Shown one piece after another: positions 1,402 through 43,275 of a stretch of 64,000 nt of DNA (position 1 is the stretch's first letter; each line of letters starts with the position of its first letter). The position numbers and the translations under genes are program-made. This stretch comes from Orobanche coerulescens (taxonomy: Eukaryota > Streptophyta > Magnoliopsida > Lamiales > Orobanchaceae): assembly GCA_033398695.1 (NCBI GenBank), contig CM065801.1, positions 105,145,170-105,209,169 on the forward strand, written 5' to 3'. Below the pieces are notes generated by a model. The model was not told the DNA's origin and did no database searches. It worked only from the letters and a program-made list of their open reading frames with translations.

Positions 1402-1624
1402 TAGCGCACGCTAAGAATGTATCTTAACGCGCGCTATCGGGCCATTATTAGCGCACGCTATGCAGGTATGAGTAACGTGCGCTAAGGACTCAATTATTGA
1501 GCGGGGCAGCTGGCTCGTGCGCCAGCGGGACATGGGTCCGGATAAGATTCCCGCTGACGCACCCGGACAAAATCAAGTCAACAAATATTAGCGAACGCTA
1601 AGGGATGCTTAGTAGCGTGCGCTA
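1402..1624 (+). promoter_or_regulatory. Palindromic TARCGYRCGYTA motif array upstream of LTR-1 TATA box
   Basis: About six copies of TAGCGCACGCTA and close variants (TTAACGCGCGCTA, AACGTGCGCTAA, TAGCGAACGCTA) lie in 220 bases, the last ending about 20 bases before a TATA-like AATTATAAATG at 1643-1653. The placement suggests an upstream promoter array. Function is inferred from position and repetition only. Confidence 0.6.
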
Positions 1625-2467
1625 ACTTATCAATAATGCAGAAATTATAAATGGGACATCAACCGTGTTGGCTTGCATTTCTTTCGCACTTTCCTCAATC
1701 TTGAGAGTTCAGAGAGTTGTAGAAATACTCTTATACACTTAGAACACATATTGTTGATATTTATACATTGGTTACCACGTGGAATGTTCATGGAAGTGGA
1801 ATAGCACCTTGGAAGGGCATACAACCAACCGGAGTTGGATTCTACCTTACGGTTGATGATTTCGTCATTTTAAGGTATGTTCAATCTATCTCCAGGACTT
1901 AGAGTTGGATTCTAACGATTTGGATGATCATGTTAACAAGATATGGATTTTCATAGATGAATTATCCAAGTATATCATGTTTGGAATAGTGAGTTGTATA
2001 AGCCTGAATACCTTGATTATAATCATCATGATTCGAATCTTAGTACCTCGAATATGTGAAGAGAAGCTTCTATCAATGGTTAACCGAATCTAATAGATGA
2101 TTTCATAGTAATCTTGGACTAGACGTTAACATCCTTATTGTTAGATAAATCTAAAGGTTTGATCATGGAAGGATTTATCTAGTATATATGGACGTTTATC
2201 AACTTGATAGGATAATATGGACTGATATAGAGGTGTTGATATCAACCATTTAGTTTTTCGTATTATCGTATGAAGATTTGAAGTCGGAAAAGAATATGGT
2301 TTTATATTGGCATGCATATCCTTGAATCAAGTTGTCTTTATCCGTATAATTATTCATGAGGGTGTAGACATAGTATTCATGGTAGTAACATGAATTATCA
2401 CGCAAGATTTCGTTGTTTCAAACATGGCAAGAACAGCATCGCTCGCCAAAGAAATCGCCATGCGAGA

Positions 2468-2679
2468 TAGCGCACGCTATGATATGCGCGGTAACGGCGC
2501 TATCGAGCAGTTGTTAGCGTGCGCTACGCTTGGTACGTAACGACGCTAGACCATCGACGAAGTCAACCGGCCGGGTCGGTGAGGTATCGACCATGCATCG
2601 TTAGCGTGCGCTAGGCTCATTGTTTGCGCGGCGCTATCGATGCATTTAACGCACGCTACACAGTACTTAGCGTGCGCTA
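2468..2679 (+). repeat. Second, mixed-orientation motif cluster in LTR-1 leader
   Basis: Further copies of the 12-bp motif (TAGCGCACGCTA, TTAGCGTGCGCTA, TTTAACGCACGCTA and decayed forms) lie downstream of the TATA box, in the region expected to be transcribed. Unlike the upstream array, both orientations are present. Confidence 0.6.
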
Positions 2680-2864
2680 AGCTATTCGCGCATTGCGCTT
2701 ATGAACTTTTGACCGTTAATCGAATTGTTTAACATTCATACGACGTGAGATAAATCCTATATCATTTCTTTTGTTAAGGTTTGGTCTCGTTACGTGATTG
2801 ATTGAGGAGGACGACCTTCGAGTGTTCATTTTCGTGGAAGTATTGTTATTGTCTTCAAATCGAG

Positions 2865-3272
2865 GCAAGTACCTTAATTGTTTTATGTATTGTTGTTATA
2901 CATATTGTCGTGCATGTATGTCGTTATTGTGTGTCCACCTCGTGTTGGTCCGACGGGATCATCGGGCGATCTATGCTAGCGCATACTGGATCATCGGACG
3001 GGTTTTTCCACCACGGGTTGGTCTGACGGGATCATCGTGGGTTCTAGGCAGTGAACGCTGGATCGATGGAATTACCATGTGTATGTATTGATATCATGTT
3101 GTGATTATCAGTTGTATATGTTATGTTTGAGATTCTCGTAGGAGAAGACTCGTTGGTATTTTGTCGTTTACGTTATTATTATTCACCGTGAGATATGAAT
3201 AATATGCTGTGGTACTTGTACTAGCATCGTTGTGCTAACCCCTTCAGGGGTGAACATTTTGTTTGTGTTCAG
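2865..3272 (+). other. Predicted GC-AG leader intron in LTR-1
   Basis: The donor reads CGAG|GCAAGTAC and the acceptor TTTGTTTGTGTTCAG|G, giving a 408-base intron within the LTR. AG|GCAAGT is the consensus of the minor GC-AG donor class. Equivalent sites sit at the same relative place in four other gypsy LTRs here. It encloses the tandem GACGGGATCATCGG module. No transcript evidence is available. Confidence 0.4.
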
Positions 3273-3607
3273 GATCCAGGAGAGCTGGGAAACAACCACT
3301 GGAACAGTATGACGACGAGGGTGCAGAGTGATGTCCCGACCGGGTTTATTTATCTTTCGTTTATTCGTCATTTCAATAAGTACTTGAGTACGAAGTAGTT
3401 TGTGGTGATTTGAATTTGGTGATGTAATATTGAGTTCTGTTGGACAATTGTACTATTTCCGTATTTTGGTCAGAACTAATGTACTGTAATTCCGTTATTT
3501 CCATTCGTCAGTACCTTTTTATACTTGTTCAATTCTTCAGCCTTGTAAATCCTTACGTAAAGGATTTACGGCGCTGTAATATTCCCGAATATATCGGGGG
3601 TGTTACA

Positions 3608-6707: not shown

Positions 6708-6717
6708 GTCTTACAAA

Positions 6718-8411: not shown

Positions 8412-9838
8412 TGATAGAGCAAAATCTCCACTAGAAGGGGGGTAGAATAGTGGGTAGGACTTTGTCTGTAAATTAAAAATATGCGAAAAAATAAACGACA
8501 CTAGATTTATAGAGGCTCGGTCCAAAATGTGACCTACGTCCTATCTCCGTTATTTTTCTATTGGCTTAAGAAAAACCACACACAACTTTGCCTCGTCTTC
8601 TATCGGTCTAAGCACCTTTACACAGTTTGTCTTCTATTGGTCCAGGCACAACCAATCACTCAATAATAAATTTCACTTCTAGTGTTCTATCGGAACTAGA
8701 AAATCCTCACTTATGATTATTGAATTTTAATCCTAATAATGCCGGATCAATGATCCTAATAACACCGGACTAAGACTCTTAGAATCGTTTCTCTCAAGCT
8801 CGTTACGGAGTGATGCAACACTCGCAACAAATGAAGAAAATACGAAGTATATGAAATTTTACAAAATAAGACCAACACTCGTATTTCTCTTTCTCACAAC
8901 TTAAATGATGGATATATAGCAATTAAAATAGAGCTCAGTGTATTGCAATTTTGCTTGATGTTGTGTGTTTGATCCATTCTAAATGTAACGGTATTTACAG
9001 GTATTTCAAGTCATATAGCCGTTACTGCATTGAGGTATTCGAGTGCGCTAATTCTTCTACGTAGCGTGTGCTAACGGCTTAGTCAATCAACTTTTCTTTT
9101 GATGTTGACAGAAAATGGGCTTGTCTCTTAACGTCTCTTTTCGACAGATAAATTTTTAACTTAGCATGCGCTAATGTTCATCTTTAGCATGCACTATATG
9201 GTCAAGATTTGCTTTCCAAATTGAGCGTGATTTCTTTGTTGACTTTGTTGTTCCAACAGCTGAATTACTAATGGTAGTATTTTGAACATTTAGCATGCGC
9301 TAACATGTAATAGATAGCGTGCGCTAATGTTTATAGGTAGCATGCGTTAGTCTTTATTTTAGCGTGCGTTGACTGGTGCTTTATTAAACTTCAGAGTTTT
9401 CTGTCTTCGAACACACTAACAGGTAGCGTGCGTAATTATATACCGTAGCGTGCGTTACTCCTTTTTATAGCGTGCGCAAATTTCTTCTTAGCATGCGATA
9501 AATGAGGTAGCCAGACTCCACTGTCCTTTTTGTCTTGTTTTCAATCAGAACAGGTAGCATGTGCTAATATTTGTAGGTAGCGTGCGCTAAGCATCAGGTG
9601 AGACTTCAGGTGACTTTCAAGTAGCGTGCGCTAATATTTGTAGGTAGCATGCTCTAAGAATCAGGTGACTTTCTGAGACTTCAGGCGACTTTCTGTTAGC
9701 ATGGGCTAACACATATGTGTAGCGTGTGCTATATGTTGATTTCTGTGTATTTTGTCTTCGATGTGATTCACGCTGTTTTTGTTGACTTTCGTTTAAATGT
9801 TTTGAAAAATATTCATCATCAAAATAATTTGTTCAACA
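8412..9838 (-). mobile_element. SIRE-type copia 5' LTR (copy A)
   Basis: Runs from TGATAGAGCAAAATCTCC to AATTTGTTCAACA (1427 bases) and aligns along its full length with the LTRs at 17513-18937 and 25094-26464 plus 42329-42386. The element reads on the minus strand, where the LTR starts TGTTGAACAAATT. The TATA box is decayed here (minus strand CTGTAAATACC near 8992-9000; CTATAAATACC in the 17513 copy). It is followed by CAACA, which equals the five bases left of the SIRE element at 17508-17512, consistent with a duplicated copy of the same insertion. Confidence 0.85.
9040..9732 (-). promoter_or_regulatory. Motif array upstream of copia LTR promoter (copy A)
   Basis: Roughly 17-20 copies of TAGCGTGCGCTA (plus-strand reading; TAGCGCACGCTA in element sense) and one- or two-base variants lie in 690 bases, about 40 bases apart, on the upstream side of the minus-strand TATA position. 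Many variants are CG to CA or TG changes (TAGCATGCGCTA, TAGCGTGTGCTA), as expected from decay of methylated CpG. Confidence 0.65.
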
Positions 9839-10512
9839 CAACATACCTCTTGAAGATGGACAACACAATCGAACACCATAAGAATCAACAATAACTTCAT
9901 ATCTCAAGCTCCAGATCCATGTCATCAAGCTCATAATCAAGTTAGAAGAGCCAAAAATCGGCCTCGGAGGGTTGAAGGATGAAAAAACAACGTGAAACTC
10001 TCAAAATGACGAAATGACGGAGTCTCTCACATTTATAAAAGTTCATACCTTACGTGCGCTACATGAACTCCCTAGCATACGAAACAACCATTACGTAGGT
10101 TATCCGACCTTGATAGCGTATGTAACGACAATCTAGAAGCTACTTCCCAAATTCGTTCGATGGCTTACGTACGTAAGGCCCATGCCATAGAGCACATAAC
10201 TCTGAGTTGACTTGCTACAATATGATACTCATTTAATGTACGTAATGGGCTATCCATAACGTATGTAAGTCTCAACGTTGACTCGACTGTCCATATCTAC
10301 GCGGAAAGTTGCTGACCACGGGACCCACCCATTGATCACTGCCTGATCCTGCCTGATATGACCTTACGTACGTTAACTATCCTTCTTAACGTACGTGAGC
10401 CTTTCGCATTAGCGTACGCTAAGTCCTTACTTCAGCGTACGTTAATCAGGCTTTACTCAGCCAATTCCAAATGTTCTTGTCTGTCGTCTCAATATACCGG
10501 ATACGTATACAC
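9839..10512 (-). mobile_element. LTR X, copy 1 right part with TTACGTACGTAA-type array
   Basis: Aligns with 42387-43070. The minus-strand TATA box (TTTTATAAATGTG) is at 10030-10040, and the motif array at 10050-10445 lies on its upstream side. The motifs are hybrids of TTACGTACGTAA and TAGCGTACGCTA. Many that are perfect in copy 2 are decayed here (AGCATACGAAA against AGCGTACGTAA). Homology stops at GTATACAC near 10512. Confidence 0.65.
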
Positions 10513-10607
10513 TGTTAGGAATATGCCCTCGAATGCCACTCAGAGGATGTTTGAAAGAGGGCATTGTACTTGTTATTATGTAAACTATTATCAGAAGGCA
10601 ATTATTT
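10513..10607. mobile_element. Short fragment resembling a copia LTR start
   Basis: Begins TGTTAGGAATATGCCCTCG, a pattern common at the start of plant copia LTRs of the Angela/Tork type, and runs only about 95 bases before the gypsy LTR at 10608. It is too short for firm assignment. Confidence 0.3.
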
Positions 10608-25058: not shown

Positions 25059-25078
25059 TTACGGATCTTCCTGTGACC

Positions 25079-25092: not shown

Positions 25093-25093
25093 T

Positions 25094-26974: not shown

Positions 26975-27130
26975 ATTACGGCGGTAGTGCTCAGCGATTA
27001 CGTACGTAAGGCGATTCGTACGTAAGGCCACGGCGATTACGTGCGTAACGGGCGGCGATTTTAGGCGGTGACTAGGTTACGTCGTAAGCCTTGGCGGTTA
27101 CGTACGTAACGGCGGCGGCGGCTATATAAG
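26975..27130 (+). promoter_or_regulatory. TTACGTACGTAA array and TATA box of the solo LTR
   Basis: At least five motifs (ATTACGTACGTAAGG, TTCGTACGTAAGG, TTACGTGCGTAACGG, GGTTACGTACGTAACGG and a decayed copy) in GC-rich DNA lead directly to GGCTATATAAGGCC. Confidence 0.65.
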
Positions 27131-28239
27131 GCCTATGATCGGGTTTTCACCCATTTTTCTCATTCCTCTCAATTCCTTCCGCGGCTGTGGCTTAGAGATT
27201 CATGATTATATGTTGTTGTGCAATCAATCCATGAAGTCCTGGAGTTTATATCATCAATAATCCATCCTATAACCTCCTCCGATCTACCGAATCAAGGTTA
27301 GATTTCTTGAAATCTAATTTTGGGGATTTTGGGTATTTTGTTCGATTTCGTCCGTTTAATCCGATTTAACTTAGGATTGTGATGGATTGATGATTATTTA
27401 GATGTATTATATCATTTCCCTTGTTATTCCATGGTTGGATCGTATCGATTCGTTGTTTGGGTCGAGTTCTTGACCGACGCCTTGAAGGTGTCCGGTAAAA
27501 TGTCATAGAGGGGTTTTCGGGCGTTCTACGATTATTCTTCCTCGTATGATTGATGATTTATTGATTATATGTTGTTAGGGTCGAATTCTTGTGAAGAACT
27601 CGAGTCGGAACCCTTCCGTTCGTCGTTTTCTTCAAGCTTCTCGATCGTGGTTGTATTCTTTTCCTTCGCCGGGGAATCGTAGGTGTTCGAGGTGTCCCGA
27701 CTGAGCCGTGATTGTAGGAGTGTCCGGTATCGATTATCGAGGCAAGTATCTTGCCCATGCATTACGTGTTTTGTGGATATATTAGTTAGTAATTTACGAT
27801 ACGTGATTTATGAATGCCTATAATTAACTTTCAAAGGAATTGATATGCTTTTCAATACTTCCTTAAAAGATGACTCGTATGATTTCGTTGTTAAATATGC
27901 TTGTATAAGTATGTGTGGGGTATCGTTTTGTGTGATTATGACATTGTGGATTTATAGCTTAACCTTTCCTTGAGATATATATGGAACGTATGCCTATTGA
28001 TGATCCTGTCTCATTGTGTCATTCGGCGTGGTTGGATAGGTATTTTCCCTCGTTGCTATGTTATTGGTACTAGCTGCATCGTTGAAATTCTAGCATGAAT
28101 CGTATCATTACTTGGTCGTGAGTATATGTTGGATGAACTGGCCATTCTAGTAAGGTACCTCGACTATATATACTGTGATTGACCTTCGAGGCTTGTGGTT
28201 GGCAACTGTGATTTTGGAACGTGTGTGTGTGTTGTTCCT

Positions 28240-28424
28240 TCCACCCGGAGTGTCCGACGGGATGTCTGGGGGTCGATACTAAGGGGTACGGCCACGGAAG
28301 TGGACTTGGGTGCGTGTGTGGATGAACTTCCACCCGGAGTGTCCGACGGGATGTCTGGGGGTCGATACTAAGGGGTACGGCCGCGGAAGTGGTTTCCCAC
28401 CCGGAGTGTCCGACGGGATGTCTG
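28240..28424 (+). repeat. Tandem module CCCGGAGTGTCCGACGGGAT
   Basis: Three direct copies of about 80-90 bases contain CCGACGGGATGTCTGGGGG and GATACTAAGGGGTACGGCC; the third is interrupted by the nested chromovirus and resumes at 41361. The core CCGACGGGAT is shared with modules in the other gypsy LTRs. Confidence 0.75.
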
Positions 28425-28728
28425 TGTAACACCTCGAGATATTCGGAATTATTACAGCGCCGTAAACCCTTTTAGTAAGGATTTACAAGGCTAGTTTAAA
28501 AGAATTTGTAAATATAATCCAATCGTACAACTGAAGTTCAAATACAGATTTGATTCAACCGATCAAATGAGTTAACTTATACAACCATATCGAAATGACA
28601 TTATTAAAACAGACGTACTCGAGTATTAAAATCAAACCAAGAAAGACAAATCACCAATAAAAACAAACATCACTGAACCCCTTCGTCGTCACATCGGTAC
28701 TGTGGCTGTTTCCCTGCTCCTCGGCTAC

Positions 28729-29253
28729 CTGAACATCAAAACAAATGTCCACCCCCGAAGGGGTTAGCAAAAAGATGCTAGTACAAGCATCATATTAAAC
28801 AAATCGAATATACATCAACAATACATAACAAGATACACCACACGGACTTCCGCTACCGGAATCCGACAATGCGAATCCACAAGATTCCATTAACACAGCA
28901 AGGGTATTCCAATGATCCAGCGCCCTCAGCATAGATCCCAAGATGATCCCGTCGGACCAACACGAGGTGGAAATAACCCATCCAATGATCCAGCACCCTC
29001 AGCCTACATCCCAAGATGATCCCGTCGGGCCAACACGAGGTGGACATCCGATCCAGCGCCCTCACCATAGATCGTACAACGTACACAAACACAACTCATG
29101 CATACATATATGCCAAATCGTTATGTCCATCAACATGAACATACAAACACTAAATATCATGACATTTCAATAAAATAAATCCCATGTTCAACAACATGAA
29201 TAAACCAGATGCATGCTCAAAAATACCAATTTTAACACATTACGATACTTGCC
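28729..29253 (-). other. Predicted GC-AG leader intron, chromovirus 3' LTR copy
   Basis: Donor CGAG|GCAAGTAT and acceptor ATTTGTTTTGATGTTCAG|G enclose 525 bases; the same sites are conserved in the 5' LTR at 39881 and 39358. Confidence 0.4.
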
Positions 29254-29439
29254 TCGAAGATGGCAAGAACGAAACACTTCAATGACCTCAACACACTCTA
29301 AGGCCGCCTCCTTCGATCAACGCAGCAAGCTCGAACCTTAACAAAAGAAATGATATACAAATCATCTCAAGTCGAACGATTGCCTAACAATTCGGTCTAC
29401 GGCCAAAAAGCTCAGAATATGCAATCTGCCTGAACCACT

Positions 29440-29625
29440 TAGCGTACGCTACGTACTCTACGTAACGTGCGCTAAGCCTGCCTGTTAGCGTACGCTATCG
29501 TCTAAGTCTAGTGTACGCTATCCACGTATTGCCAGTTCTCTCTGATCAGCCGACTGACTCGACTGATAACTTATTCCTGCTAGCGCGTGTTAACTTACAT
29601 ATGTTAGCGTGCGCTAACCGTTCAT
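29440..29625 (-). repeat. Leader motif cluster, 3' LTR
   Basis: About seven motif copies (TAGCGTACGCTA, TAACGTGCGCTAA, TTAGCGTGCGCTAACC and others) downstream of the TATA box. The arrangement differs from the matching cluster at 40070-40240 by whole-motif insertions and deletions. Confidence 0.65.
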
Positions 29626-30293
29626 GGCAGATTACTGCTGGCAGAAAACTTGATCTAATGGTGATGAACTCATGAATTCTATGGTGATAATACATGTCAT
29701 CCCCGTGCATATCATGCTCATAAGGTGTGTGAACGATCTCTATGGATAAAACGACTACAAGATACAAGGGTATGTATTATCATCAAACTTCATCTTGATC
29801 TCGAGAAAGTATCCTAAGTTCCCTTCGTCCTACGTTCCAAAACGCATGATTCCAATGTGTAAAACGTAACAACTTGGTAATTTCCATCTACTGGTCACAA
29901 ATTGGTTTGAAGCTTCAGAATATGCTAGGAGTTCAAACACTAAGAGGTTCAATGGTTTATACGATGAATAAGTACCGAAACATCGAAAATATCCTTCTAA
30001 CACATGATGTTCGACTACTTAAGAATCTAACTGACAAGATAAACATGATCAAACGTCCTTTAGAACACTACTAATATTGGTGAAGAATCACCTACCTCAA
30101 AGTAGTGAAGAACAAGGAGGAAATCGAAGCAATCCAACGTCGAAGGCTTGAACACCAATCCTCAATGATCTACAATCTTCAACACGAGCTAGGATGCTGA
30201 TATGAAGTGTTTAGGATGTAGAGAGTAATACTCTAAGTATAGGGATTCGGATGTGGGAAGAGAAAAGACTGAAAATACGAAAAGGATGTTGTC

Positions 30294-30615
30294 CTATTTA
30301 TAGAAAATGGTTATTAGCGCGCGCTAGTCCATACTCTTAGCGTGCGCTAACGGCTTACTGACTTCACTGTATTCAGCACTTAGCGTGCGCTATTCTCATA
30401 CCTGTAGCGTGCGCTAAGGCGTTGACTTGGCTTTTCCCGAAAGTCGTCCAGGTTCATCCCGACACAATCCGACCAAGATCCCCGGCCTGATCTCACCTAC
30501 CACACGTCTCAATCATATTGACCACGTGTAGCGTGCGCTAATGTTCCTTTGTAGCGTGCGCTATGGATCCATGTTAGCGTACGCTACACATAGAAGATAG
30601 CATGTGCTACATGCG
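30294..30615 (-). promoter_or_regulatory. Upstream motif array and TATA box, chromovirus 3' LTR
   Basis: About eight motifs (TTAGCGTGCGCTAA on the plus strand and variants, including one GCGCGC form) lie upstream, in element sense, of the TATA box at 30294-30303. Confidence 0.65.
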
Positions 30616-30760
30616 CAGAATCACAATCTTAAATCACATTCATGAAATCATACGCTCAACAACACCGGACTATGAGATACGGAGAATAATACTCAGATTA
30701 AAGTGCAACAATTACAATATCACAAGTTCTAAATACATATCAGAAATCTCGGGTATTACA

Positions 30761-30775
30761 TCCTTCCTCCCTAAA
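30761..30775 (-). other. Polypurine tract of the chromovirus
   Basis: Minus strand TTTTAGGGAGGAAGGA runs directly into the 3' LTR. Confidence 0.75.
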
Positions 30776-30796
30776 AAGAAGTTTCGTCCTGAAACT

Positions 30797-33466
30797 TAAG
30801 ATAAAAACAACTCTGGATATCTAGCCTTCATACTGTCCTCTATTTCCCAAGTGGCCTCTTCAGCTCCATGTCGTGACCATTGTACTTTAACCAAGTGTAT
30901 TGGTTTATTCCTCAATTGTTTGATCCGACTCTCAAGTATCTTGATTGGTCTCTCTTCGAAGGTGCCGTCATTAGCTATCTCGATCTCTTCGAAATCAATG
31001 ACGTGACTGGGGTCCGTTACATACTTCTACAGTTGGGATACGTGAAACACATTGTGAACGTGACTCAGCGATGGCGGTAAGGCCAACCTGTATGCTAAAT
31101 CTCCAACTCTCTCGAGGATCTCGAATGGTCCGATATATCTCGGACTTAGCTTACCTCTCCTCCTAAAACGGGAAATCCCTCGTGTAGGAGACACCTTCAA
31201 TAGTACATGGTCCCCAACGTCGAACTCTAAAGGGCGACGACGTACGTCTGCATAAGATTTATGTCGACTCTGGGCAGTCAACAATCTTTCCCGAATCAAT
31301 GCTATCTTCTCTTGAGTCTGAACTATCAATTCCGGTTCTGTCCCGATCAAGTCCGAAGAATCATCCCAGCACAGGGGTGATCGACATCTTCTCCCGTACA
31401 AAGCTTCAAATGGTGCCATCTTAATAGAAGCATGCCAACTATTATTGTAAGTGAATTCAATCAACGGCAAATGAACTTCCCAATCAATCGACCAATCTAA
31501 GGCACAAGCTCTAAGCATGTCTTCTACTGTTTGAATAGTCCTTTCGGACTGACCATCTGTTTGGGGATGATAAGCCGTACTAAAGTTGAGCTCAGTCCCC
31601 AAGGCCCTGTGAACTGCTTTCCAGAAGTGCGACACGAAGCGACCATCTCGATCTGAAATAATTGTCTTCGGCGTCCCATGCAATCTGACTATCTCTGCAA
31701 TAAATACTCGCGCCAATCTCTCGGATCCCCATGTATCTTTAATTCCTAGGAAATGAGCCGACTTGGTTAGTCGATCAACTATAACCCAAATCATGTTCAT
31801 TCCCGTTCTAGTCCTTGGCATACGGGTGATGAAATCCATCGAGATATCCTCCCACTTCCACTCAGGGATCGGAAGCGGCTTTAACATTCCGGCAGGTCCC
31901 TGATGTTCAATCTTAACCTGCTGACAAGTCAAACACTTCGAAACGTACTCTGCTACGTCCTTCTTCATATTCCCCCACCAGAAGTTTTGTTTAAGATTTT
32001 TATACATTTTACTGCTGCCCGGGTGAATAGAATAGGGCGCGCTCTGAGCTTCCTTCAGAATTGTCCGTCTCAAATCATCATCATCGGGAATGCAAAATCG
32101 ACTCTGAAATCTCAGAACTCCATCATCTTGTATCACAAATCCTGGGGCCTTTCCTTTCTTTACTTCGTCACATAACCGAAGGATCAGAGAATCGTTCAAC
32201 TGCTTAGATTTGATCTCCTCGACTAGTGATGAAGTCAGTTCCATCACAAATAGTTGCCCTTGGATTCCTGGTGCCCATACTTCAATCCCTTCGCGGATCA
32301 GTTCCCGTTGAATGCTGGTTTGGGACGTAAGTGCTTCCAACACTCGAAGAGAAACAGGTTTACGGCTCAATGCATCGGCTACTACGTTTGCTTTCCCCGG
32401 ATGATAGAGAATCTCCAAGTCGTAATCCTTGATCAATTCCAGCCACCTTCTCTGCCTCATGTTTAATTCTTTCTGACTGAAAATGTACTTGAGGCTTTTA
32501 TGATCTGTAAAGATCTGACAATGAGTACCGTATAAATAATGTCGCCAAATTTTCAAGGCAAAGATCACAGCTGCTAACTCCAGATCATGAGTCGGGTAAT
32601 TAACCTCGTATGGTTTCAGCTGCCGAGAAGCATAGGCAATCACCATATCTTTTTGCATCAACACACATCCCAGACCCTGATTTGAAGCGTCGCTGTACAC
32701 CATGAATCCATCAGTTCCATCTGGTAATGCTAATATAGGTGCTGTCGTCAGTCTCTTCTTAAGTTCATCAAAACCAGCCTGGCATTTCTCATCCCACTTA
32801 AACTTTTGAATTTTCTGTAATAGCTGAGTGAGCGGACGAGAAATTTTGGAAAATCCCTCTACAAAGCGGCGATAGTATCCAGCAAGTCCTAGGAAACTCC
32901 GGACTTCTTTCACGTTATTAGGAACCTCCCATTCCAAGATTGCTTCGACTTTCTTCGGGTCCACCTGAACTCCTTCAGCTGATATCACATGCCCAAGGAA
33001 AGTTACTTCCCTAATCCAGAACTCGCATTTTGAAAGCTTTGCATACAACTGTTCCTTCCTCAAGGTGCTCAAAACCACACGCAAATATTCTGCATGCTCC
33101 TCTGTGTCCTTCGAATATATCAAGATGTCATCAATGAAGACGACCACAAATTTATCCAAGTATTCCAAGAATACCCGATTCATCAATTGCATGAATACCG
33201 CAGGAGCATTGGTAAGTCCAAATGGCATCACTACAAATTCATAATGCCCGTACTGGGATCTGAAAGCAGATTTCGGTATATCCGATTCCTTAATTCTCAA
33301 CTGATGGTATCCTGATCGCAAGTCAATCTTCGAGAATACCCTAGCCCCTTGCAGTTGATCAAATAAGTCGTCGATCCGAGGTATAGGATACTTATTCTTG
33401 ATCGTCATCTTGTTGAGCTCCCTGTAATCAATACACAGTCGGAGGGATCCGTCTTTCTTCCGGACA
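30797..33466 (-). pseudogene. Chromovirus pol: RT, RNase H, integrase, chromodomain
   Basis: A 793-residue open block (33408-31027) holds RT ([17 protein letters not shown], catalytic FIDDILIYS), RNase H ([22 protein letters not shown]), the integrase zinc finger (HPGSSKMY...CLTCQQVK), the integrase core ([35 protein letters not shown]) and the GPF/Y domain ([10 protein letters not shown]). One in-frame TAG at about 31024 separates this from a chromodomain that is otherwise open to a stop near 30797 (HLVKVQW, EATWE, ARYPELF). RT is cut at its N-terminal end by the solo LTR at 33472; it resumes at 36850. Apart from these lesions the block is well kept, in line with a young insertion. Confidence 0.92.
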
Positions 33467-33708
33467 AAGATTGTAATATCCGGAATTTCTATTACTATTG
33501 TTTAATGTTATCCGAGTTATGTTGTACAGCATGGAATCTGTACAGTATGGGTAAAATAATTAAAGGACCGAGACATCTGTATTTGTATAATTGTCGTACT
33601 TGGTCGACAATTGGATGTAAGAAGTATATGTATTCAGTATGCCGTATGTTCGTATTCTGTATGTTGAGACGTTGGAAAAGAATAGCTGAAAATGGCTAAG
33701 TGTAACAT

Positions 33709-34216
33709 TATTAGCGCACGCTAATAATCATGAGTAGCGCACGCTATCGTGCGTGATTAGCGACGCGCTACGTTTATAGGTTAGCGACGCTAGTGCGCAT
33801 GAATCGGAAGGAATCTGCGTGTGGACCCGCTTTGGCGCACGTTACGATAAGTCAACGGATGTTGTAATGTAGTGTTAGCGCACGCTAATGCATGTTGATT
33901 AGCGACGCTAGCGTATATTGGGACAAAAGGAATCTTATCCTAGTCGAGCCGTCGGCGTGTGGACCCGTGTTCGGAGCATACAGACAAACGAGTCAACTAA
34001 TGTTAGCGCACGCTAAACGCAAGGACTTGCGTACGCTAGAGAGTGTAAATTACGTACGCTAATGCATGGGCATTACGACGTAAGCTCATGTACGGCTTGA
34101 CGGTAGTCTCGGACTACGATAGCGCACGCTAACAAAGGTCGATTAGCGCACGCTAAAGCCTTAGCGCACGCTAAACATGAGATGTTAGCGCACGCTAGTA
34201 ATGCGATCTATATAAG
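33709..34216 (+). promoter_or_regulatory. Upstream motif array and TATA box of the nested solo LTR
   Basis: About a dozen copies of TTAGCGCACGCTAA and variants occur between 33709 and 34200; the last four (near 34118, 34143, 34160 and 34185) are almost perfect and lie within 20-40 bases of each other. TCTATATAAGGG follows at 34206. Confidence 0.7.
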
Positions 34217-34874
34217 GGACAGACGGGTATTATGAAGCATTTCGTCCATTCTTTCACTTTCAATCGATAGAGAGAGCTTTGGGAGGTTCTTGAGGTTCCC
34301 AAGCACGGTGAGGTGGTGATCTTTAACAAGATTAAAGATGGAAATCATGGATTAAAGCTTTGTTCTTGAAATCATTGGTGATTCTTGGAAATGGATTCAA
34401 CCTTGGAAATCAATCCATTCCTTCATAAAGGTAATCACTTTTCATCTTTGGATTTCGTTTTGGATTGAATGTTGATGATTATTACATAAACAAGTTTGAC
34501 AAGCATGATTATGAGATGGTATACGGAGTATGATGATATTAATATGATTCTTGTGATTTAGATTGTGTCGTTCGTTTTCTTGAGATAAGTGGATTAATCC
34601 TTCTCCTCGATTTTGGATGTTGATGTTATTGTAGATGATTACTCTTTGTAATGGAAGATTAAGGAAGTGTGGTTACGTTCTTGACGTTTCGTGTATTAAT
34701 ATTAAGAAAGATGATATATGGATATAGAACTTGGATTATAAGTTGGATGATTGTTTATATGTTAAAGGATATCGGATTTCGTTGTTTTGATATCTTTGAA
34801 CATGATTAAGAATCACTTGGTGTTCTTGAAATCGCCATAATTTGATCGGTATCTGAAAAACATGCATCATCGGC

Positions 34875-34960
34875 ATTAGCGCACGCTACGTTCTTGCCTA
34901 GGCGCGCTAACGGGAGCAACTTAGCGCACGCTACGTTAGGTGATTAACGTGCGCTAAGAA
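34875..34960 (+). repeat. Leader motif cluster of the nested solo LTR
   Basis: Four motifs (TTAGCGCACGCTACG twice, GGCGCGCTAACGG, TTAACGTGCGCTAAG) lie downstream of the TATA box. Confidence 0.6.
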
Positions 34961-36849
34961 GCCGAAAGTGCGGTATTTTCGTGTTGTGGTTGTAAATTCG
35001 TCTTTGGTTTGAGTAGGATTAATTCGACTAGTGTTTAATCGAGATATTGTCGAGCCGTTGGGTTTGTGAATTGGTTTTATCGATTGTTGATTGTTATCGA
35101 ACTTGTTGTCTATCGATTACTGTAATAGGTTGAGAATATTGATCGGTGATTACAACCGTGTGTTGCGGTCGAGCTCGAGTATGTTCGTGAATGGCTTTGG
35201 TCGGGACAGAGGGACTTGTAGATGACGGAAAGGGAATTGGTAACAACTTCATCGGTATCGAGGTAAGTTATTACTTGCTCAGTTCATAATATTTAATGAA
35301 TGGTTTCCGTTTCATTCGTGTATAATTCGTATAGCAATGTTTATAATCGTAATCACAGGAGATTTGAGATTATAAATCGTATTCGAGTTTTGGGAATCTG
35401 AATCATAATGTATATGATTTACTTTTGTTATTGGTATATCGAGGATATATTGTGATAAAGACGGAGATATGAATTATCTGCAATTCGTGATACTTTGGAC
35501 CGTCGAGTATTGAGGATAATGGTTCGTGATGGTTTAGACATTGAGATCATTCTCGAAGGACTCGGGGCAAGTACTCTAATCTATTTTATCATTTGTGTCG
35601 ATTATGTCATGATACATTCGTGTATCGTTGTTGTCGTGTATTGTGTACTGCTGTTTTGTGCAGTTGTGTATTGTTGTCATATGTCCACCTCGTGTTGGTC
35701 CGACGGGATCATCGGGGGATCTATGCTAGCGTGCGCTGGATCATCGGACGGGTTTTCCACCTCGGGTTGGTCTGACGGGATCATCGGGGGATCTAGGCAG
35801 TGAACGCTGGATCATCGGATTGCCATGTATTGTTGTTGTGCATATGTATATTATGGATTTGCCATAAGTATACATTGTCATTATTGTTGTGATCATATTG
35901 ACGTTGTCATATGAGTATGCATTTGTAGGTCTTGTGTTAGGACCATGTCCGTATGTTGTGTGGATCTGATCTCGGATTAGACTGACGTGATGGAAATGGT
36001 ATTTCGTATCTTGAGGTATGTTCCGTATTTCCTTGATACTTGTCTTTGATGGACAATCGATTTTCGTATTGAAATTGTCGACGTCATCCGATGGATTGAA
36101 TTAGCCAGTTGGTATAATTTCCGTATCGCGAGTTATGATAATGTTTTTGAGAACCTTGGGTATTGTTGAGATACCGCATGAGATATTTTGGTATTATCTC
36201 ATGGTGATGTTAAGGATACGAATTGTGGATTTTCGTAAAGTTAAGACGGTAAGATTACATTGGTCGTATTCTTACTTAGTATTTCCATTGATATGTAATT
36301 ATTGACGTGATGTGATGGTTATCATTGTTGGATATTATGGTGACCCGTCGTGGGCTTTCTTTTTAGGTTCTTGGATTATCAAGCTTGTAGCGGTCGTGGA
36401 GAGATGAGCTTCCGGAGGATCTTGGCTAGAACATGTATTTGTGTATTGAGCTTACATTCGGTTGTTGTATTCATTGCTAGAGTATTTTAATCGTTTGTCT
36501 TTTTCATTGCGTGAGTATTTTTAAATGGTCTTTTGGTATTTGGTAACTTAGGTTACCTTGGCGATCGTTCTCTAAATCTATTCTGTCGGTACGTGTAAGC
36601 GATAGCTTAACGTATGTACTTAAACTGTTGAGTCTTGGCATTTCGGGCCTTGTGGTTTCAAATGAGTTTTTACGACGGTTTGATAAACGAGTTTTATAAA
36701 TCTTCGAATGGTTTTAATAGATAATACCGTCGTTAGCCTCTTGGGCGTTTTGTAAATGTTTGCGAAAATTTCTTTCAGCCTTGTGGGTTCCATCTCGGGG
36801 CCCACGGCGCTGTAATATTCCCGGTCGGATCTGGGGGTGTTACAAAGAT

Positions 36850-37689
36850 AACGGGCGCTCCCCAAGGAGAAACGCTAGGTTGAATATAGCCCTTCTGTAA
36901 CAATTCCTCCAGTTGCTTTTTGAGTTCATACATCTCGGTTGGCGCCATGCGGTATGGTGCTCTGGAAACAGGAGATGCTCCAGGCTCTAATTCGATGGTG
37001 AATTCCACTTCTCTCTGCGGAGGTAACCCAGGTAGTTCGTTAGGAAATACATCTGAGAACTCATTCACAACTTAAATAGACGAGAGCTCTACTCCTTCCT
37101 CTTTCCTCATGGCATAGCACCAAAGTCCATGACATCCCTGCTTCAGTAATTTCACGGCTTTCATTGCTTTGATCAATTTTCCCGACCTTCCCGGTCTCCA
37201 TCCTCGGAATAAGTGTTCAGATCCGTCATCAGCAATGATAGAAATGACTCTCTCTCAGTAATTCAGAATAGTTCCATAACGGTTGAGCCAATCATTTCCG
37301 AGAATTAAATCGTCACCGTAGATGTCAACTACAATAAGATTCGATGGCCAATCTCTCCCTCTTATAGACACTGGAAAGTCTCTAGCCTCTAGGGTTCCCA
37401 CAATTCTCTCTCCACTCGGCAAACCCACAACATAAGGTTCACAATCAAATAAACACGAGATTTTTAAACGATTAACACAGTTCAATGATATGAAAGAATG
37501 TGTAGCTCCGGAATCGAATAAGACACTAACTGGTTGCAAAAGGATCTGAATCGTACCTGATGCAACAGCAGTGTTCTGTTCGTTAGATTTCCTCATCTCG
37601 TACAGGCGCGGAGGAACGGACCCAGCACTAGATGTCTCTCTCTTCCCAATATTCTGCTGCTGAAATCCACTCCGTTGCGTTTGGTTCAC
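36850..37689 (-). pseudogene. Chromovirus protease and RT N-terminal part
   Basis: Protease motif LFDSGATHSFIS (catalytic DSGA) lies in the open block 37689-37255, which ends at a TGA; a second block (37068-36850) carries the linker and RT start ([31 protein letters not shown]), after an in-frame TAA near 37073. RT is then interrupted at 36849 by the target duplication and solo LTR. Confidence 0.88.
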
Positions 37690-37699
37690 ACTTATCTCC

Positions 37700-38866
37700 T
37701 TCGGAGCTGGCGCTGGAGTGCGAGTACCAAAAGATCTAGTAGCAACTCCACAGAAAGCCGCACGATGCCCTTCTTGCCCACAATCTTAACAAGTCACAGA
37801 AGATGCAGGGCAATCACGTCGAATATGCCCTGCTCGACCACAATTGTAGCATTTCTTTGATGCGTCCGAAACTGCTGATGTAGTCCGGAACTTCTTTCCA
37901 CCTCTAGAAGGATGTGGAGGTTTCCTAGCCGAATAAAAGGAAGACTGGCCCTTGCGGGGGCCACCACTCTTGTTTTCTAAGAAGCTGCCGGTCACTTTCT
38001 GCTTCTTTGCCTCCACTGATTTCTCCACCGCAGCTTCTTTCATGTCGTAGGCCAGTGCTTTGTCTTGATACTGTCGCAACGTAGTACACTCGAATCCGGA
38101 CATGTACTGCTGAATCTCTGGCTTCATCCGCATATCGAAATGAAAAATCTTTTCTGCCTCCGTTCTGACCAAGTGTCGCACACAAGTCAGCTGATGATTA
38201 AAAGTTTTAATTACATCGGTCACAGATGCTTCCGAACTCTGTGGTGAGAAAAACTCTCGGATCTTTGCCTCTCTAACCGGACGAGGACAATACTGTGCTT
38301 CCATCATTAGTTTGAATTCCGTCCAATCCGCATTATGATCCTCGGGTCGAATAGCTTCCCACCAGTCAAAGGCCTCCCGGTCGAAAGAAATCTTGGGCAA
38401 TGGGAACCTTCCGGTCCTCGGGACAGTTAATACCCGCGAATATTTTCTCTAACTCCTTTAGCCAATGATCCCAAGTAAGTGCTTCTGCAGATCCGTCAAA
38501 CTTTGGCGGGTGCAATTTGACCACCTCAGCAAGCCATCTGTCTCCCCGGTTATCTTCATGATGCTGCTGTCCCATCGCTGTCTGCATGCAATCAACTACC
38601 TGAGCGAACTGGTTTATTTGAGCCACCACCTGTTGAAGCACTCCCGGCATGTTAGGATTTGCGTCGTCATTTTCCGATCCCTGCTGCCCTCCAGAATGGG
38701 AATCGGTTCTACTAGCCAATAATTCTGGGGTAATTGCGGAGTCCTCCTGTCTCATATTTCCACGTCCGCGTCCACGACCACGTCCGCGTCCACAACCCCC
38801 TCTCAACATAGTGAAAACACAATTTTCAATATCTAGGGCAAAATTTTCAAAAATAAAGCCTGTCAA
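37700..38866 (-). pseudogene. Chromovirus gag
   Basis: Two overlapping open blocks (38866-38366 and 38400-37786) show one frame change near 38380. The N-terminal part has an RGRGRGRG tract; the capsid region (FDREAFDWWEAI) is followed by a CCHC zinc knuckle (CYNCGRAGHIRRDC) and, after an in-frame TAA at 37783-37785, the remains of a second knuckle (CGQEGHRAAFC). Gag forms the particle and binds the genomic RNA. Confidence 0.88.
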
Positions 38867-39036
38867 TACTCACAAAACAGAATTAAGTAAAATGGTAGTA
38901 CAAGAGATTAGGAGACTTACAACCATGGTCCACATGACGACTTTTGGCTGAATAGTGATGTTACGAATGACTCGTAAATCAATAACGTAAACAGACCCAA
39001 CTTAAAACCCGACTGCCAAGATATCCATGAATCTTA

Positions 39037-39048
39037 GCTCTGATACCA
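39037..39048 (-). other. Primer-binding site of the chromovirus
   Basis: Minus strand TGGTATCAGAGC, a perfect initiator-Met tRNA match, five bases after the 5' LTR end. Confidence 0.9.
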
Positions 39049-40069
39049 TATTCTGTAACACCCCGAGATATTCGGAAGTATTACAGCGCCGTAAACCCTT
39101 TTAGTAAGGATTTACAAGGCTAATTTAAAAGAATTTGTAAATATAATCCAATCGTACAACTGAAGTTCAAATAGAGATTTGATTCAACCGATCAAATGAG
39201 TTAACTTATACAACCATATCTAAATGATATTATTAAAACAGACGTACTCGAGTACTAAAATCAAACCAAGAAAGACAAATCACTAATAACAACAAACATC
39301 ACTGAACTCCTTCGTCGTCACATCGGTACTGTGGCTGTTTCCCTGCTCCTCGGCTACCTGAACATCAAAACAAATGTCCACCCGCGAAGGGGTTAGCAAA
39401 AAGATGCTAGTACAAGTATCATATTAAACAAATCGAATATGCATCAACAATACATAACAAGATACACCACACGGACTTCCGCTACCGGAATCCGACAATG
39501 CGAATCCACAAGATTCCATTAACACAGCAAGGGTATTCCAATGATCCAGCGCCCTCAGCATAGATCCCAAGATGATCCCTTCGGACCAACATGAGATGGA
39601 AATAACCCGTCCAATGATCCAGCGCCCTCAGCCTAGATCCCAAGATGATCCCGTCGGACCAACACGAGGTGGACATCCGATCCAGCGCCCTCAGCATAGA
39701 TCGTACAAAGTACACAAACACAACTCATGCATACATATATGCCAAATCGTTATGTCCATCAACATGAACATACAAACACTGAATATCATGACATTTCAAT
39801 AAAATAAATCCCATGTTCAACAACATGAATAAACCACATGCATGCTCAAAAATACCAATTTTAACACATTACGATACTTGCCTCGAAGATGGCAAGAACG
39901 AAACACTTCAATGACCTCAACACACTCGAAGGCCGCCTCCTTCGATCAACGCAGCAAGCTCGAACCTTAACAAAAGAAATGATATACAAATCATCTCAAG
40001 TCGAACGATTGCCTAACAATTCGGTCTACGGCCAAAAAGCTCAGAATATGCAATCTGCCTGAACCACTT

Positions 40070-40245
40070 AGCATACGCTATCGTCTAAGTCTAGCGTACG
40101 CTAGCCACGTAATGCCAGTTCTCTCTGATCAGCCGACTGACTCGACTGATAACATAACGTACGTTACGTACCAAACGTAGCGTACGTTAACTTATTCCCG
40201 CTAGCGCGTGTTAACTTACATATGTTAGCGTGCGCTAACCGTGCA
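40070..40245 (-). repeat. Leader motif cluster, 5' LTR
   Basis: Includes a TAACGTACGTTACG and TAGCGTACGTTAAC pair absent from the 3' LTR, while two motifs present in the 3' LTR are missing. Confidence 0.65.
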
Positions 40246-40909
40246 TGGCGACATCGCGCGTAAAACTTGATCTAATGGTGATGAACTCATGAATTCTATG
40301 GTGATAATACATGTCATCCCCGTGCATATCATGCTCATAAGGTGTGTGAACGATCTCTATGGATAAAACGACTACAAGATACAAGGGTACGTATTATCAT
40401 CAAACTTCATCTTGATCTCGAGAAAGTATCCTAAGTTCCCTTCGTCCTACGTTCCAAAACGCATGATTCCAATGTGTAAAACGTAACAACTTGGTAATTT
40501 CCATCTACTGGTCACAAATTGGTTTGAAGCTTCAGAATATGCTAGGAGTTCAAACACTAAGAGGTTCAATGGTTTATACGATGAATAAGTACCGAAACAT
40601 CGAAAATATCCTTCTAACACATGATGTTCGACTACTTAAGAATCTAACTGACAAGATAAACATGATCAAACGTCCTTTAGAACACTACTAATATTGGTGA
40701 AGAATCACCTACCTCAAAGTAGTGAAGAACAAGGAGGAAATCGAAGCAATCCAACGTCGAAGGCTTGAACACCAATCCTCAATGATCTACAATCTTCAAC
40801 ACGAGCTAGGATGCTGATATGAAGTGTTTAGGATGTAGAGAGTAATACTCTAAGTATAGGGATTCGGATGTGGGAAGAGAAAAGACTGAAAATACGAAAA
40901 GGATGCTGT

Positions 40910-41213
40910 CCTATTTATAGAAAATGGTTATTAGCGCGCGCTAGTCCATACTCTTAGCGTGCGCTAACGGCTTACTGACTTCACTGTACTCAGCACTTAA
41001 CCAGTAGCGTGCGCTAAGGCGTTGACTTGGCTTTTCCCGAAAGCCGTCCAGGTTCATCCCGACACAATCCGACCAAGATCCCCGGCCTGATCTCACCTAC
41101 CACACGTCTAAATCATATTGACCACGTGTAGCGTGCGCTAATGTTCCTTTGTAGCGTGCGCTATGGATCCATGTTAGCGTACGCTACACATAGAAGATAG
41201 CGTGCGCTACATG
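40910..41213 (-). promoter_or_regulatory. Upstream motif array and TATA box, 5' LTR
   Basis: About seven motifs, one fewer than the 3' LTR (a TTAGCGTGCGCTATT unit is lost near 40998), upstream in element sense of the TATA box at 40910-40920. Confidence 0.65.
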
Positions 41214-42328
41214 TGCAGAATCACAATCTTAAATCACATTCATGAAATCATACGCTCAACAACACCGGACTATGAGATACGGAGAATAATACTCAGATTA
41301 AAGTGCAACAATTACAATATCACAAGTTCCAAATACATATCAGAAATCTCGGGTATTACAGTCTGGGGGTCGATACTAAGGGGTACGGCCGCGGGTTACC
41401 AGTTGTGGTTTTCATCTTGAGGATGACGTTGATGTTTTCGTTAATTGTGATATTGTCCGGAGTATCACAATGCTTTGTGCTCGGGGTCGAGAGGCATTAT
41501 ATATCGAGTCTTGGTGCTTGGCTAGAATGGCATAGGAATAATGTGTTATGTGTAATGTGTCTTTGTAAGTGAATTGAAGTGGATGATCGGGTCGTGGACC
41601 CTGTGTTTTGTGACCGGAATGGTTGGGTCGTGGACCCCGTGTTTTGTTAAACGGATTTGTATTTTGGAAAATGAACTTTGGGGCTGTGACCCTAAATGGC
41701 TTTCGAGGAATTAAGAACTTTTCAATTTCTGATGTTTTCAAAACTCCCGAGATTTGGAAGTGTTTTCAAAGTGCTTATTTACTTCGTTTCTACTTTCAAG
41801 ACTTGAACTATTTTTAACTAAATATACCTCGGGAAGTCTTTCGTTGTATTCTCGGAATGTGTTGTGTATGGCTCGTATTTGCACTTTATACTTGCACTAG
41901 CGAAACAGTGGAGTTTTGCTAACCCCCGAGTAATCGGGGGGTGGATATCTGTATTGTGTCCAGGTACATGCAGGTTTTCGGGAGCAAGACACAGGATCGG
42001 CACGAGGGATGATGAAAGACGAATGATACTAATCACACGAAGGCCAGTTTTGGGTTCAGTTAGTCGGAGTCCATTGTATTGTCTTTTCCGCTGTCTTATT
42101 GTTCGTTGTTGCAAGCATTTTACCCTTGTGTAGGTATGAGTCTGGATGAGTTTATGTATTTTGATTTGTAAGTCAGTGACGAAAGACCAAATCGGTCTGT
42201 TGGTCCGATATTTTGATTCATCGGTATGTAATGTAATGTTTTGTTTTGATGTCTAGCCTAGTGGATCCTCACGGAGAGGGTCTGCGGCGTGTAATATTCC
42301 CGGTTTGATCTGGGGGTGTTACATTTTT

Positions 42329-42386
42329 ATCGACTTTCGTTTAAATGTTTTGAAAAATGTTCATCATCAAAATAATTTGTTCAACA
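42329..42386 (-). mobile_element. SIRE 5' LTR, outer 58 bases
   Basis: Carries GACTTTCGTTTAAATG and ends AATTTGTTCAACA, matching the outer ends of LTR copies A and B and completing copy C across the nested gypsy insertion. Confidence 0.9.
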
Positions 42387-43275
42387 CAAGATACCTCTTG
42401 AAGATGGACAACACAATCGAACACCATAAGAATCAACAATAGCTCCATATCTCAAGCTCCAGATCCATGCCATCAAGCTCATAATCAAGTTAGAAGAGCC
42501 AAAAATCGGCCTCGGAGGGTTGAAGGACGAAGAAACAAAGTGAAACTCTCAAAATGACGAAATGACAGAGTCTCTCACATTTATAAAAATTCATTCCTTA
42601 CGTACGCTACATGAACTCCCTAGCGTACGTAATAACCATTACGTACGTTATCCGACCTTGATAGCGTACGTTACGACAGTCCAGAAGCTACTGCCTCAAT
42701 TCGTTTGATGGCTTACGTACGTAAGGCCCATGCCATAGCGTACGTAACTCCGAGTTGACTTGCTATAGTATGATACTCATTTAACGTACGTAATGGGCTA
42801 TCCATAATGTACGTAAATCTCTATGTTGACTTGTCTGTCCACATCTGTGCCGAAAGTTGCCGACCATGGGACCCACCCATCGATCACAGCCTGATCCTGC
42901 CTGATATGACCTTACGTACGTTAACTATCCTTCTTAACGTACTTAAGCCTTGTGCATTAGCGTACGCTAAGTCCTTACTTTAGCGTACGTTAATTAGGTT
43001 ATACTCAGCCAATTCCAACTGTTCTTGTCTGTCATCTCAATATACCGGATACGTATACACGACATACTGAGTATATATACTCGTTCCACTAACATTCTCA
43101 TACGATACACTTGATACACAATATCCTCAAATATAATTGTCGACTAACTACAACAATTATACCAACACAACTGTCTCAGTTCTCAATTATTCTATCCATA
43201 CTGTATAGATACCACGCTATTCAATATATGTCATATAAAATAATGCAAAAAATTTATACTGAAATTTCAGGATAT
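42387..43275 (-). mobile_element. LTR X, copy 2 right part
   Basis: Continues LTR X beyond the SIRE insertion and matches 9839-10512 as far as about 43070. It has a TATA box (minus strand TTTTATAAATGTG, 42577-42590) and a motif array at 42598-42997. The likely LTR end is near 43275, where ACTGAAATTTCAGGATAT resembles the reverse complement of a TGTAATATCC... start, but the last bases are changed, so the boundary is approximate. Confidence 0.55.
42598..42997 (-). promoter_or_regulatory. TTACGTACGTAA/TAGCGTACGCTA array of LTR X, copy 2
   Basis: About twelve motifs, several perfect (TTACGTACGTAA near 42714, TTAGCGTACGCTAA near 42958), upstream in element sense of the TATA box. The hybrid forms join the ACGTACGT and GCGTGCGC motif classes. 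Confidence 0.65.

Follow-up and report, generated by a model that had tools for sequence, protein, structure and literature searches.

Palindrome arrays in the LTRs of the window

We analysed a 64,000-nucleotide stretch of the genome of Orobanche coerulescens (contig CM065801.1, positions 105,145,170 to 105,209,169 of the forward strand; hereafter the window), in which nested long terminal repeat (LTR) retrotransposons lie ahead of a host gene. The LTRs carry arrays of a 12-bp near-palindrome, TARCGYRCGYTA, and the same motif occurs in both the copia and the gypsy superfamily. Its sites have a preferred pitch, a preferred orientation and a usual distance to the next TATA box, and between families they are better conserved than the spacers that separate them. 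As an earlier note on this stretch had stated in outline, the hosts belong to both superfamilies: a single Sirevirus-type copia family, represented in the window by three LTR copies, and five LTRs of gypsy type. Copia-B lies inside the element designated G4, G5 splits copia-B, gypsy1 splits G5 and G3 splits gypsy1. The array-bearing features are the following (TSD, target-site duplication).

About 1247-3607, + strand: 3' LTR of gypsy2, which ends at about 3607
1402..1624, + strand: gypsy2 promoter array, 6 sites with at most one mismatch (5 exact), TATAAAT 21 bp past the last site
2468..2679, + strand: gypsy2 downstream array, 5 exact sites, no TATA after it
8412..9838, - strand: 5' LTR of copia-A, Sirevirus-type, 12 sites with at most one mismatch at 9062-9731, next TATAWAW 143 bp on
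10050..10444, - strand: array of the G4 LTR fragment, duplicate copy, TATA 12 bp past the last site
17513..18937, - strand: 3' LTR of copia-B, array at 18141-18830, TATA 39 bp past the last site
20738..20935, - strand: internal array of copia-B, 5 sites with at most one mismatch, just beyond the end of pol
25094..26464, - strand: main part of the copia-B 5' LTR, array at 25724-26415, TATA 39 bp past the last site
26465..42323, + strand: G5, solo LTR of a chromovirus-like gypsy element, TSD TTTTT, interrupted by gypsy1
26995-27112, + strand: weak G5 array of the TTACGTACGTAA form, TATA 13 bp after
28425..41360, - strand: gypsy1, chromovirus-like, with both LTRs (the pair 2.1% diverged), TSD CAGAC
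29440..29616, - strand: downstream array of the gypsy1 3' LTR, 6 sites with at most one mismatch, no TATA after it
30315..30586, - strand: promoter array of the gypsy1 3' LTR, 7 exact sites, TATA 12 bp after
33472..36844, + strand: G3, chromovirus-like solo LTR nested in gypsy1 pol, TSD AAGAT
33712-34197, + strand: G3 promoter array, 11 sites with at most one mismatch, TATA 11 bp after
34877..34956, + strand: G3 downstream array, 3 exact sites, no TATA after it
40069..40237, - strand: downstream array of the gypsy1 5' LTR, 6 sites with at most one mismatch, no TATA after it
40932..41209, - strand: promoter array of the gypsy1 5' LTR, 7 exact sites, TATA 12 bp after
42598..42992, - strand: array of G4, a gypsy-type LTR fragment and the insertion target of copia-B, TATA 12 bp after

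The first ~60 bp of the copia-B 5' LTR, at about 42324-42386, were cut off by the insertion of G5. The TSD of copia-B is TGTTG, with TCTTG in one copy.

All ten arrays listed in the earlier note are present. It gave 5 to 17 or more copies for each, but at 26975-27110 just three sites are found at up to two mismatches and none is exact. Five arrays had been missed (2468-2679, 20738-20935, 29440-29616, 34877-34956 and 40069-40237). A TATA box had been placed within tens of bases after every array; this applies to nine of the ten listed, the exception being that of copia-A (9040-9732), and it fails for all five missed arrays, none of which has a TATA box within 150 bp downstream. The absence of copies beyond 43 kb was borne out: with up to one mismatch allowed, no site was found from 43.0 kb onwards, and three occur there at two mismatches.

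The G4 and copia sequence is partly duplicated. Window positions 5307-10512 are 91-92% identical to 14316-43060, with the nested insertions in the longer copy, and we interpret the 5307-10512 copy as the product of a segmental duplication that subsequently lost part of its sequence. Both copies contain about eight 57-bp tandem repeats (5992-6453 and 15001-15464).

Sequence and abundance of the motif

The window holds 66 exact TARCGYRCGYTA sites, against 0.02 expected from dinucleotide shuffles, and none of 100 shuffles reached this number; with at most one mismatch there are 110 sites against 0.71 expected. A genome-wide count, proposed in the earlier note, found the motif at 1,694,025 places in 3,646,015,169 bases, roughly 1,600 times as often as the reversed pattern used as a control (1,058). 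A second form, TWACGTACGTAA, was counted 291,790 and 292,328 times on the two strands (controls 7,439 and 7,699). Since no 12-mer can match both forms, the combined genome total is at least about 1.99 million sites. The shuffles and the reversed-pattern count rule out chance or base composition as the source of this excess.

Further analyses used a 314-kb sample made up of the window, twenty 10-kb regions and one 50-kb block (B1). Site density in the twenty 10-kb regions (480/Mb) is near that of the whole genome (465/Mb). In the sample, 327 of the 334 sites with at most one mismatch fall in 39 arrays of at least three sites, so that the motif is not equally frequent away from LTR promoters. 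When the sample was searched for palindromes with 5-bp arms and 0-4 middle bases, TAGCG-NN-CGCTA came first (170), followed by AT repeats (141 at most). For the census of lineages, the sample was joined by 15 short Sirevirus loci. These were found with GGGGGAGATTGTTGRA, which combines the Sirevirus polypurine tract with the LTR start and occurs at 8,141 places in the genome; the loci were chosen among the matches listed (100, all on contig 1) and comprise nine of the first 11 with TGTTGGA and all six with TGTTGAA.

Along the element's direction the 12-mer reads T-A/T-R-C-G-Y-A-C-G-Y-T/A-A. Information content drops sharply outside the 12 positions, and the Sirevirus set shows slight preferences in the flanks. 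Mismatches are balanced between the left and right half-sites (52 and 56 in gypsy, 65 and 63 in Sirevirus), and this equal constraint on both halves suggests a dimer that reads abutted half-sites. Each unit has two or three CpG, and mismatches fall mostly at CpG letters (64/108 in gypsy and 92/128 in Sirevirus).

Two dialects of the motif, with GCGYRCGC and ACGTACGT cores, are present in both superfamilies. Within one Sirevirus clade, loci L034 and L046, whose LTRs are 77.9% identical over 797 bp, have mostly ACGTACGT and GCGCACGC cores, and both forms occur in gypsy arrays too. On G000:C1, at 783737-787104 and 1066749-1072838, arrays of ACGTACGT recur about 2.6-3.2 kb apart and are perhaps short non-autonomous Sirevirus derivatives.

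Pitch, orientation and distance to the TATA box

Successive sites are exactly 23 bp apart in 103 of 251 gaps in the gypsy arrays and the rest of the sample (mean 5.5 and maximum 14 in 1,000 random placements) and in 43 of 109 gaps in the Sirevirus arrays (mean 1.9 and maximum 8 in 1,000 placements). Pitches of 22-24 bp make up 140/251 and 53/109 gaps, respectively, and when only gaps of up to 40 bp are considered the exact 23-bp pitch is found in 103/161 and 43/59. Such regularity could come about neutrally if a 23-bp unit were multiplied by tandem duplication or slippage and then spread by gene conversion, and for some arrays a tandem repeat period of 22-23 bp is indeed detected. Duplication would copy the spacers too, yet neighbouring 11-bp spacers in gypsy arrays have an identity of 0.298 (33 pairs) against 0.272 for random pairs between loci; in Sirevirus arrays the value for neighbours is 0.333 (9 pairs). 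The spacers are thus unrelated, so that tandem duplication does not explain the 23-bp pitch; we reject this origin for the arrays and assign next to no probability to it.

The centre of the site is oriented: along the element's direction, CA and TG stand at 131:23 in gypsy, 35:1 in the Sirevirus loci and 25:0 in the window copia. Palindromes might also act as RNA or single-strand structure, if the self-complementary units pair into hairpins within the 3' U3 region of the RNA and so aid packaging or dimerization or, as has been proposed for Sireviruses of maize, trigger small RNAs. All three arrays that were folded did better than their shuffles (z of -2.46, -4.93 and -4.48), and the available parts of PMC5311732 and PMC10760457 describe maize Sirevirus palindromes as small-RNA hotspots. 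Any palindrome array folds well, however, so these z-scores do not tell cause from by-product, and the oriented CA centres mismatch the two middle bases when units pair. Structure would favour mixed or TA/CG centres, although the TA-centred dialect does pair perfectly. A structural role leaves the preferred pitch with free spacers and the usual TATA distance unexplained, and we regard it as quite improbable.

For the distance to the TATA box, we sorted 40 arrays by LTR position and following sequence into 24 promoter-type, 11 downstream, four copia and one unclassed. The last site lies 11-13 bp from TATA in 17 of the 24 gypsy promoter-type arrays, and 39-41 bp from it in nine of 14 Sirevirus loci and two of the three window copia LTRs. 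Most downstream arrays precede a similar AGYRGKYCAGGCAG-like stretch, as judged by eye (e.g., 2468-2679, 29440-29616 and 40069-40237), and nine of them, which come from gypsy1, gypsy2 and loci of the sample, group together when compared with 150-bp flanks. Because pitch, orientation and TATA phase are all constrained, a promoter element read by the host, as the earlier note had suggested, is the best reading of the arrays.

Lineages that carry the arrays

The window copia elements are Sirevirus-like in their gene order, three polypurine tracts, polyC signal and internal array past pol. On the - strand, separate open frames encode gag, Pol_BBD, gag_pre-integrs, rve, SH3_retrovirus and RVT_2 in this order. 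The polypurine tract GGGGGAGA occurs three times ahead of the 3' LTR of copia-B (19094, 19062 and 18946), the polyC signal CCCCCCC lies near the 3' end of the LTR, and the LTR is followed by a sequence resembling a primer-binding site (judged by eye), which we take to be of the Met type. No env domain was found near the internal array of copia-B in the two frames scanned. The window copia LTRs have 12-14 sites each at one mismatch or fewer. Among the 15 Sirevirus loci, 14 have at least eight sites (8-17) at up to two mismatches; seven of the 15 contain exact TARCGYRCGYTA and the other seven carriers have a TAACGTACGTAA-like form. When masked Sirevirus loci were compared with the 314 kb, matches were confined to the interior or edge of the window copia LTRs.

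Gypsy1 has the order PR-RT-RH-INT with RVT_1 and a match to the chromodomain PF00385 that stays under the threshold (E 3e-4; 21.1 bits, cut-off 25.1). From the LTR length and the TGTAATA...GTTACA ends, the gypsy elements may be of the Tekay type. By identity over nearly the whole query, the closest relative of gypsy1 pol among the best 120 of 7,967 scored is from Rumex salicifolius (75%), and the other near-full-length relatives among them reach at most 66%. Among viral contigs, 13 stretches matched but none was confirmed as a gypsy pol relative, and no exact spaced pair of sites was found. Of 30 matches found when gypsy LTR starts were searched for, 18 were judged to be LTR starts; 10 of these 18 have sites within 1.2 kb.

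The lack of overall homology between copia and gypsy LTRs claimed in the earlier note was confirmed: with LTR bounds and motifs masked, those of the window do not match, and unmasked they match solely in 35-80-bp pieces. Its description of the five gypsy LTRs as distinct needs qualification. In the masked comparison there are matches among gypsy1, gypsy2 and G3 outside the arrays (71-86% over 141-411-bp pieces), so these three are relatives; neither G4 nor G5 has a match under the same settings. The array regions themselves do fall into separate groups, without detected homology, when short flanks are used. With 50-bp flanks the 40 arrays form 19 groups and no copia-gypsy link; gypsy1, gypsy2, G3 and G4 fall into different groups, each alongside relatives from the sample, and G5 is on its own. 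Widening the flanks to 150 bp leaves 12 groups: G3 merges with G4, two relatives from the sample are placed with G5, and the single copia-gypsy link, of 41 bp, lies by its coordinates in gypsy sequence beside a copia LTR. A single homology network, obtained when 600-bp flanks joined 37 of 39 arrays including the copia LTRs, was discarded; it arose in part through nested neighbours, and we therefore claim gypsy relatedness only from masked matches or short-flank groups. Masked comparison and grouping alike indicate that the LTRs do not share one recent common ancestor over their full length. The separate array groups within gypsy leave our reading of the arrays unchanged.

Recent exchange, in which a whole array passed between the superfamilies by recombination or template switching, would account for the likeness of site, preferred pitch, orientation bias and both dialects in copia and gypsy. 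It would not account for the spacers, of which none is common to the two (mean identity 0.254, best 0.73 over 11 bp), for the masked LTRs without a match or for the unlike TATA distances. Exchange, the second route that the earlier note had allowed besides gain, thus has no trace in the spacers as a recent event, and we consider a recent exchange unlikely.

Palindromes of other kinds were seen at further gypsy LTR starts and at one Sirevirus locus. Gypsy-type LTRs at L018 3182-3900 and 8646-9300 carry arrays of TTACGGCCGTAA; TATA follows both (3182 and 8646) after about 22 bp, by eye, and the units have the CGG-CCG signature published for Sireviruses. In B1, units centred on CGGCCG stand ahead of TATA at gypsy LTR starts near 28480 and 33643, and a GCCGCGGC palindrome is found at a gypsy LTR start near 40176. 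L040, the sole Sirevirus locus of the 15 without the motif studied here, has CACGGCCCGTG-like units.

Conservation between families and decay of CpG

Divergence was compared in four between-family sets, one row of which, L035, is distant. In the two Sirevirus sets, sites and spacers diverge by 0.188 vs 0.399 and 0.093 vs 0.253; in the two gypsy sets, by 0.037 vs 0.143 and 0.115 vs 0.294. Outside the array the values are, in the same order, 0.264, 0.141, 0.150 and 0.133. Despite their wealth of hypermutable CpG, sites are therefore lower than outside sequence in all four sets, and spacers are the fastest-diverging part in three. The reverse is seen among the three copia LTRs of the window, which were taken to be dead copies and in which sites diverge most (0.106 vs 0.081 for spacers and 0.076 outside). 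Between the two LTRs of gypsy1, 33 of 128 CpG have changed, against 48 differences over 2,268 positions (2.1%). Fast CpG decay after insertion, together with conservation between families, suggests that selection in the spreading lineages would be needed to maintain the sites.

The CpG content could instead mean that a host silencing or chromatin factor reads the arrays, or that they are CpG islands, so that the host and not the element profits. The two or three CpG per unit, the concentration of mismatches at CpG letters and the rapid loss of CpG after insertion are all consistent with this. Conservation of the sites between spreading families and their faster loss in dead copies are nevertheless the opposite of what is expected of a purely harmful mark, and the usual phase to TATA also argues against silencing, which we hold to be rather improbable.

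Relation to known motifs

Palindromic arrays are already known from Sireviruses, and their sharing with gypsy was not found in the literature searched. According to the part of PMC2829016 available, the RM boxes of Sireviruses are high-copy, CpG-rich palindromic dyads in the LTR upstream of TATA, with more copies before ENV; 12 of 13 elements have a CGG-CCG core, Tnd-1 being without it, and the distance from CpG island to TATA averages 37 bp. That part reports no preferred pitch or orientation and calls the boxes Sirevirus-specific on a comparison within copia; this study of 2010 was unable to identify a common factor. The arrays described here resemble RM boxes in being palindromic, in having at least eight copies and in lying upstream of TATA in copia. 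The 37-bp distance is also similar to the 39-41 bp of our copia arrays, and the internal array of copia-B lies just past pol, where Sireviruses have their copies before ENV. In contrast, the core here is RCGYRCGY and not CGG-CCG, a pitch and an orientation are both preferred, and the same site is found in gypsy LTRs instead of being restricted to Sireviruses.

Several plant transcription factors recognize related cores. CGTG(T/C)G is the BZR/BES1 site and ACGT the bZIP site. The earlier note had drawn on both likenesses, but CGTGCG covers only the CA/TG-centred sites and ACGT only the other dialect, and neither covers both. For NAC proteins, the consensus T[TAG][GA]CGT[GA][TCA][TAG] (Table 3 of PMC4106437) is fitted by the antisense strand of most units, T[AT][AG]CGT[AG]. 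In models of inverted NAC sites, however, the cores are separated by 7-8 bp according to PMC4081100 and by 5-10 bp according to PMC4106437, whereas the cores here abut and both halves are equally constrained. We rejected NAC, BZR/BES1 and bZIP as the factor, each of which fits part only.

In maize, the available parts of PMC5311732 and PMC10760457 have Sirevirus palindromes clustering within the regulatory portion of the LTR and describe the commonest copia palindrome as also the top motif in structured regions of Helitrons; unlike these palindrome regions, the arrays here are also in gypsy LTRs. PMC6911290, as far as its text was available, names Tekay and palindromes but concerns palindromes as insertion targets. 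Searches by title and the start of the abstract, with most subscription journals outside their reach, found no report of palindrome arrays in gypsy LTRs, and of 22 papers that contain one or more of six motif strings, none of the 20 listed is on plant transposons as judged by title.

A putative host-read promoter element

We consider it probable, at about 60%, that the arrays are homotypic clusters of sites for a dimeric, putative host factor that activates the LTR promoter. This protein would read the 12-bp near-palindrome as a dimer, through a pair of abutting TWRCGY half-sites around an oriented centre, and bound dimers would activate transcription from the TATA box just downstream. The preferred 23-bp pitch would keep the stereo-relation of the dimers to one another and to the TATA complex constant. 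Sirevirus-type copia and chromovirus-like gypsy elements may each have adopted the same site, either by separate gain or by an old exchange followed by spacer turnover. More tentatively, and at somewhat less than even odds, we propose that copia and gypsy separately adopted the oriented dyad, the preferred 23-bp pitch and the usual TATA phase, that each shifted between the same two dialects, and that ~2 million sites or more now serve one host factor family.

The sites, their preferred pitch and orientation, the usual TATA phase, the distribution over families and the pattern of conservation were observed; binding by a protein, the encoding of this protein by the host and activation are what we infer from sequence. 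Several observations weigh against this reading. The pitch is a preference, as 59% of gaps in gypsy and the rest of the sample and 61% in Sirevirus arrays differ from 23 bp. The TATA distance is not equal in the two superfamilies (11-13 bp in gypsy, 39-41 bp in copia), and it is off the usual value in seven of the 24 gypsy promoter-type arrays (21 bp, 37 bp and five with no TATAWAW within 150 bp) and, at 61-136 bp, in five of the 14 Sirevirus loci; for some of these, the sites or the TATA box look decayed by eye. Promoter activation fails to cover every array, since 11 of the 40 are gypsy downstream arrays that no TATA follows within 150 bp. The counts are not independent, as related copies are common among the arrays. 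The divergence sets were hand-picked, both gypsy sets hold two LTRs of one element, and in one gypsy set the advantage of sites over outside sequence is modest (0.115 vs 0.133). Eight of the 18 apparent gypsy LTR starts have no site within 1.2 kb, although one of these eight has only 544 bp readable and at least one is followed by another LTR start. Finally, the presence of other CpG palindromes in several siteless gypsy LTRs and in L040 fits a factor family, or symmetry as such, better than one protein.

The drivers of transcription in highly successful plant retrotransposons are poorly known. Two superfamilies with the same site and the same preferred geometry in one plant offer a specific bait, a specific pitch and two independent promoters. 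With ~2 million sites, the factor that reads them would have to be either kept away from them by silencing or very abundant, and the arrays may thus help to show how so large a pool of binding sites is tolerated by a host. The arrays could possibly also be used as family markers and CpG-decay clocks in the annotation of large plant genomes.

Other features of the window

The region past 43 kb, described in the earlier note as a host gene region, does include a host gene, represented by exons of a laccase-like multicopper oxidase (53155-57294, + strand), but it also has an LTR-like element and a reverse-transcriptase fragment. Adjoining the array-bearing block is a tandem array of 3.8 copies of a 229-bp unit (43699-44569). 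The LTR-like element (47940-50098) is small and GC-rich. Its direct repeats of ~335 bp are 95% identical, it has weak gag-like matches, and the gag-like protein was found again in the sampled regions B1, L011, L012, L013 and L026. The RVT_1 reverse-transcriptase fragment lies at 51252-51746 on the + strand and perhaps belongs to a LINE.

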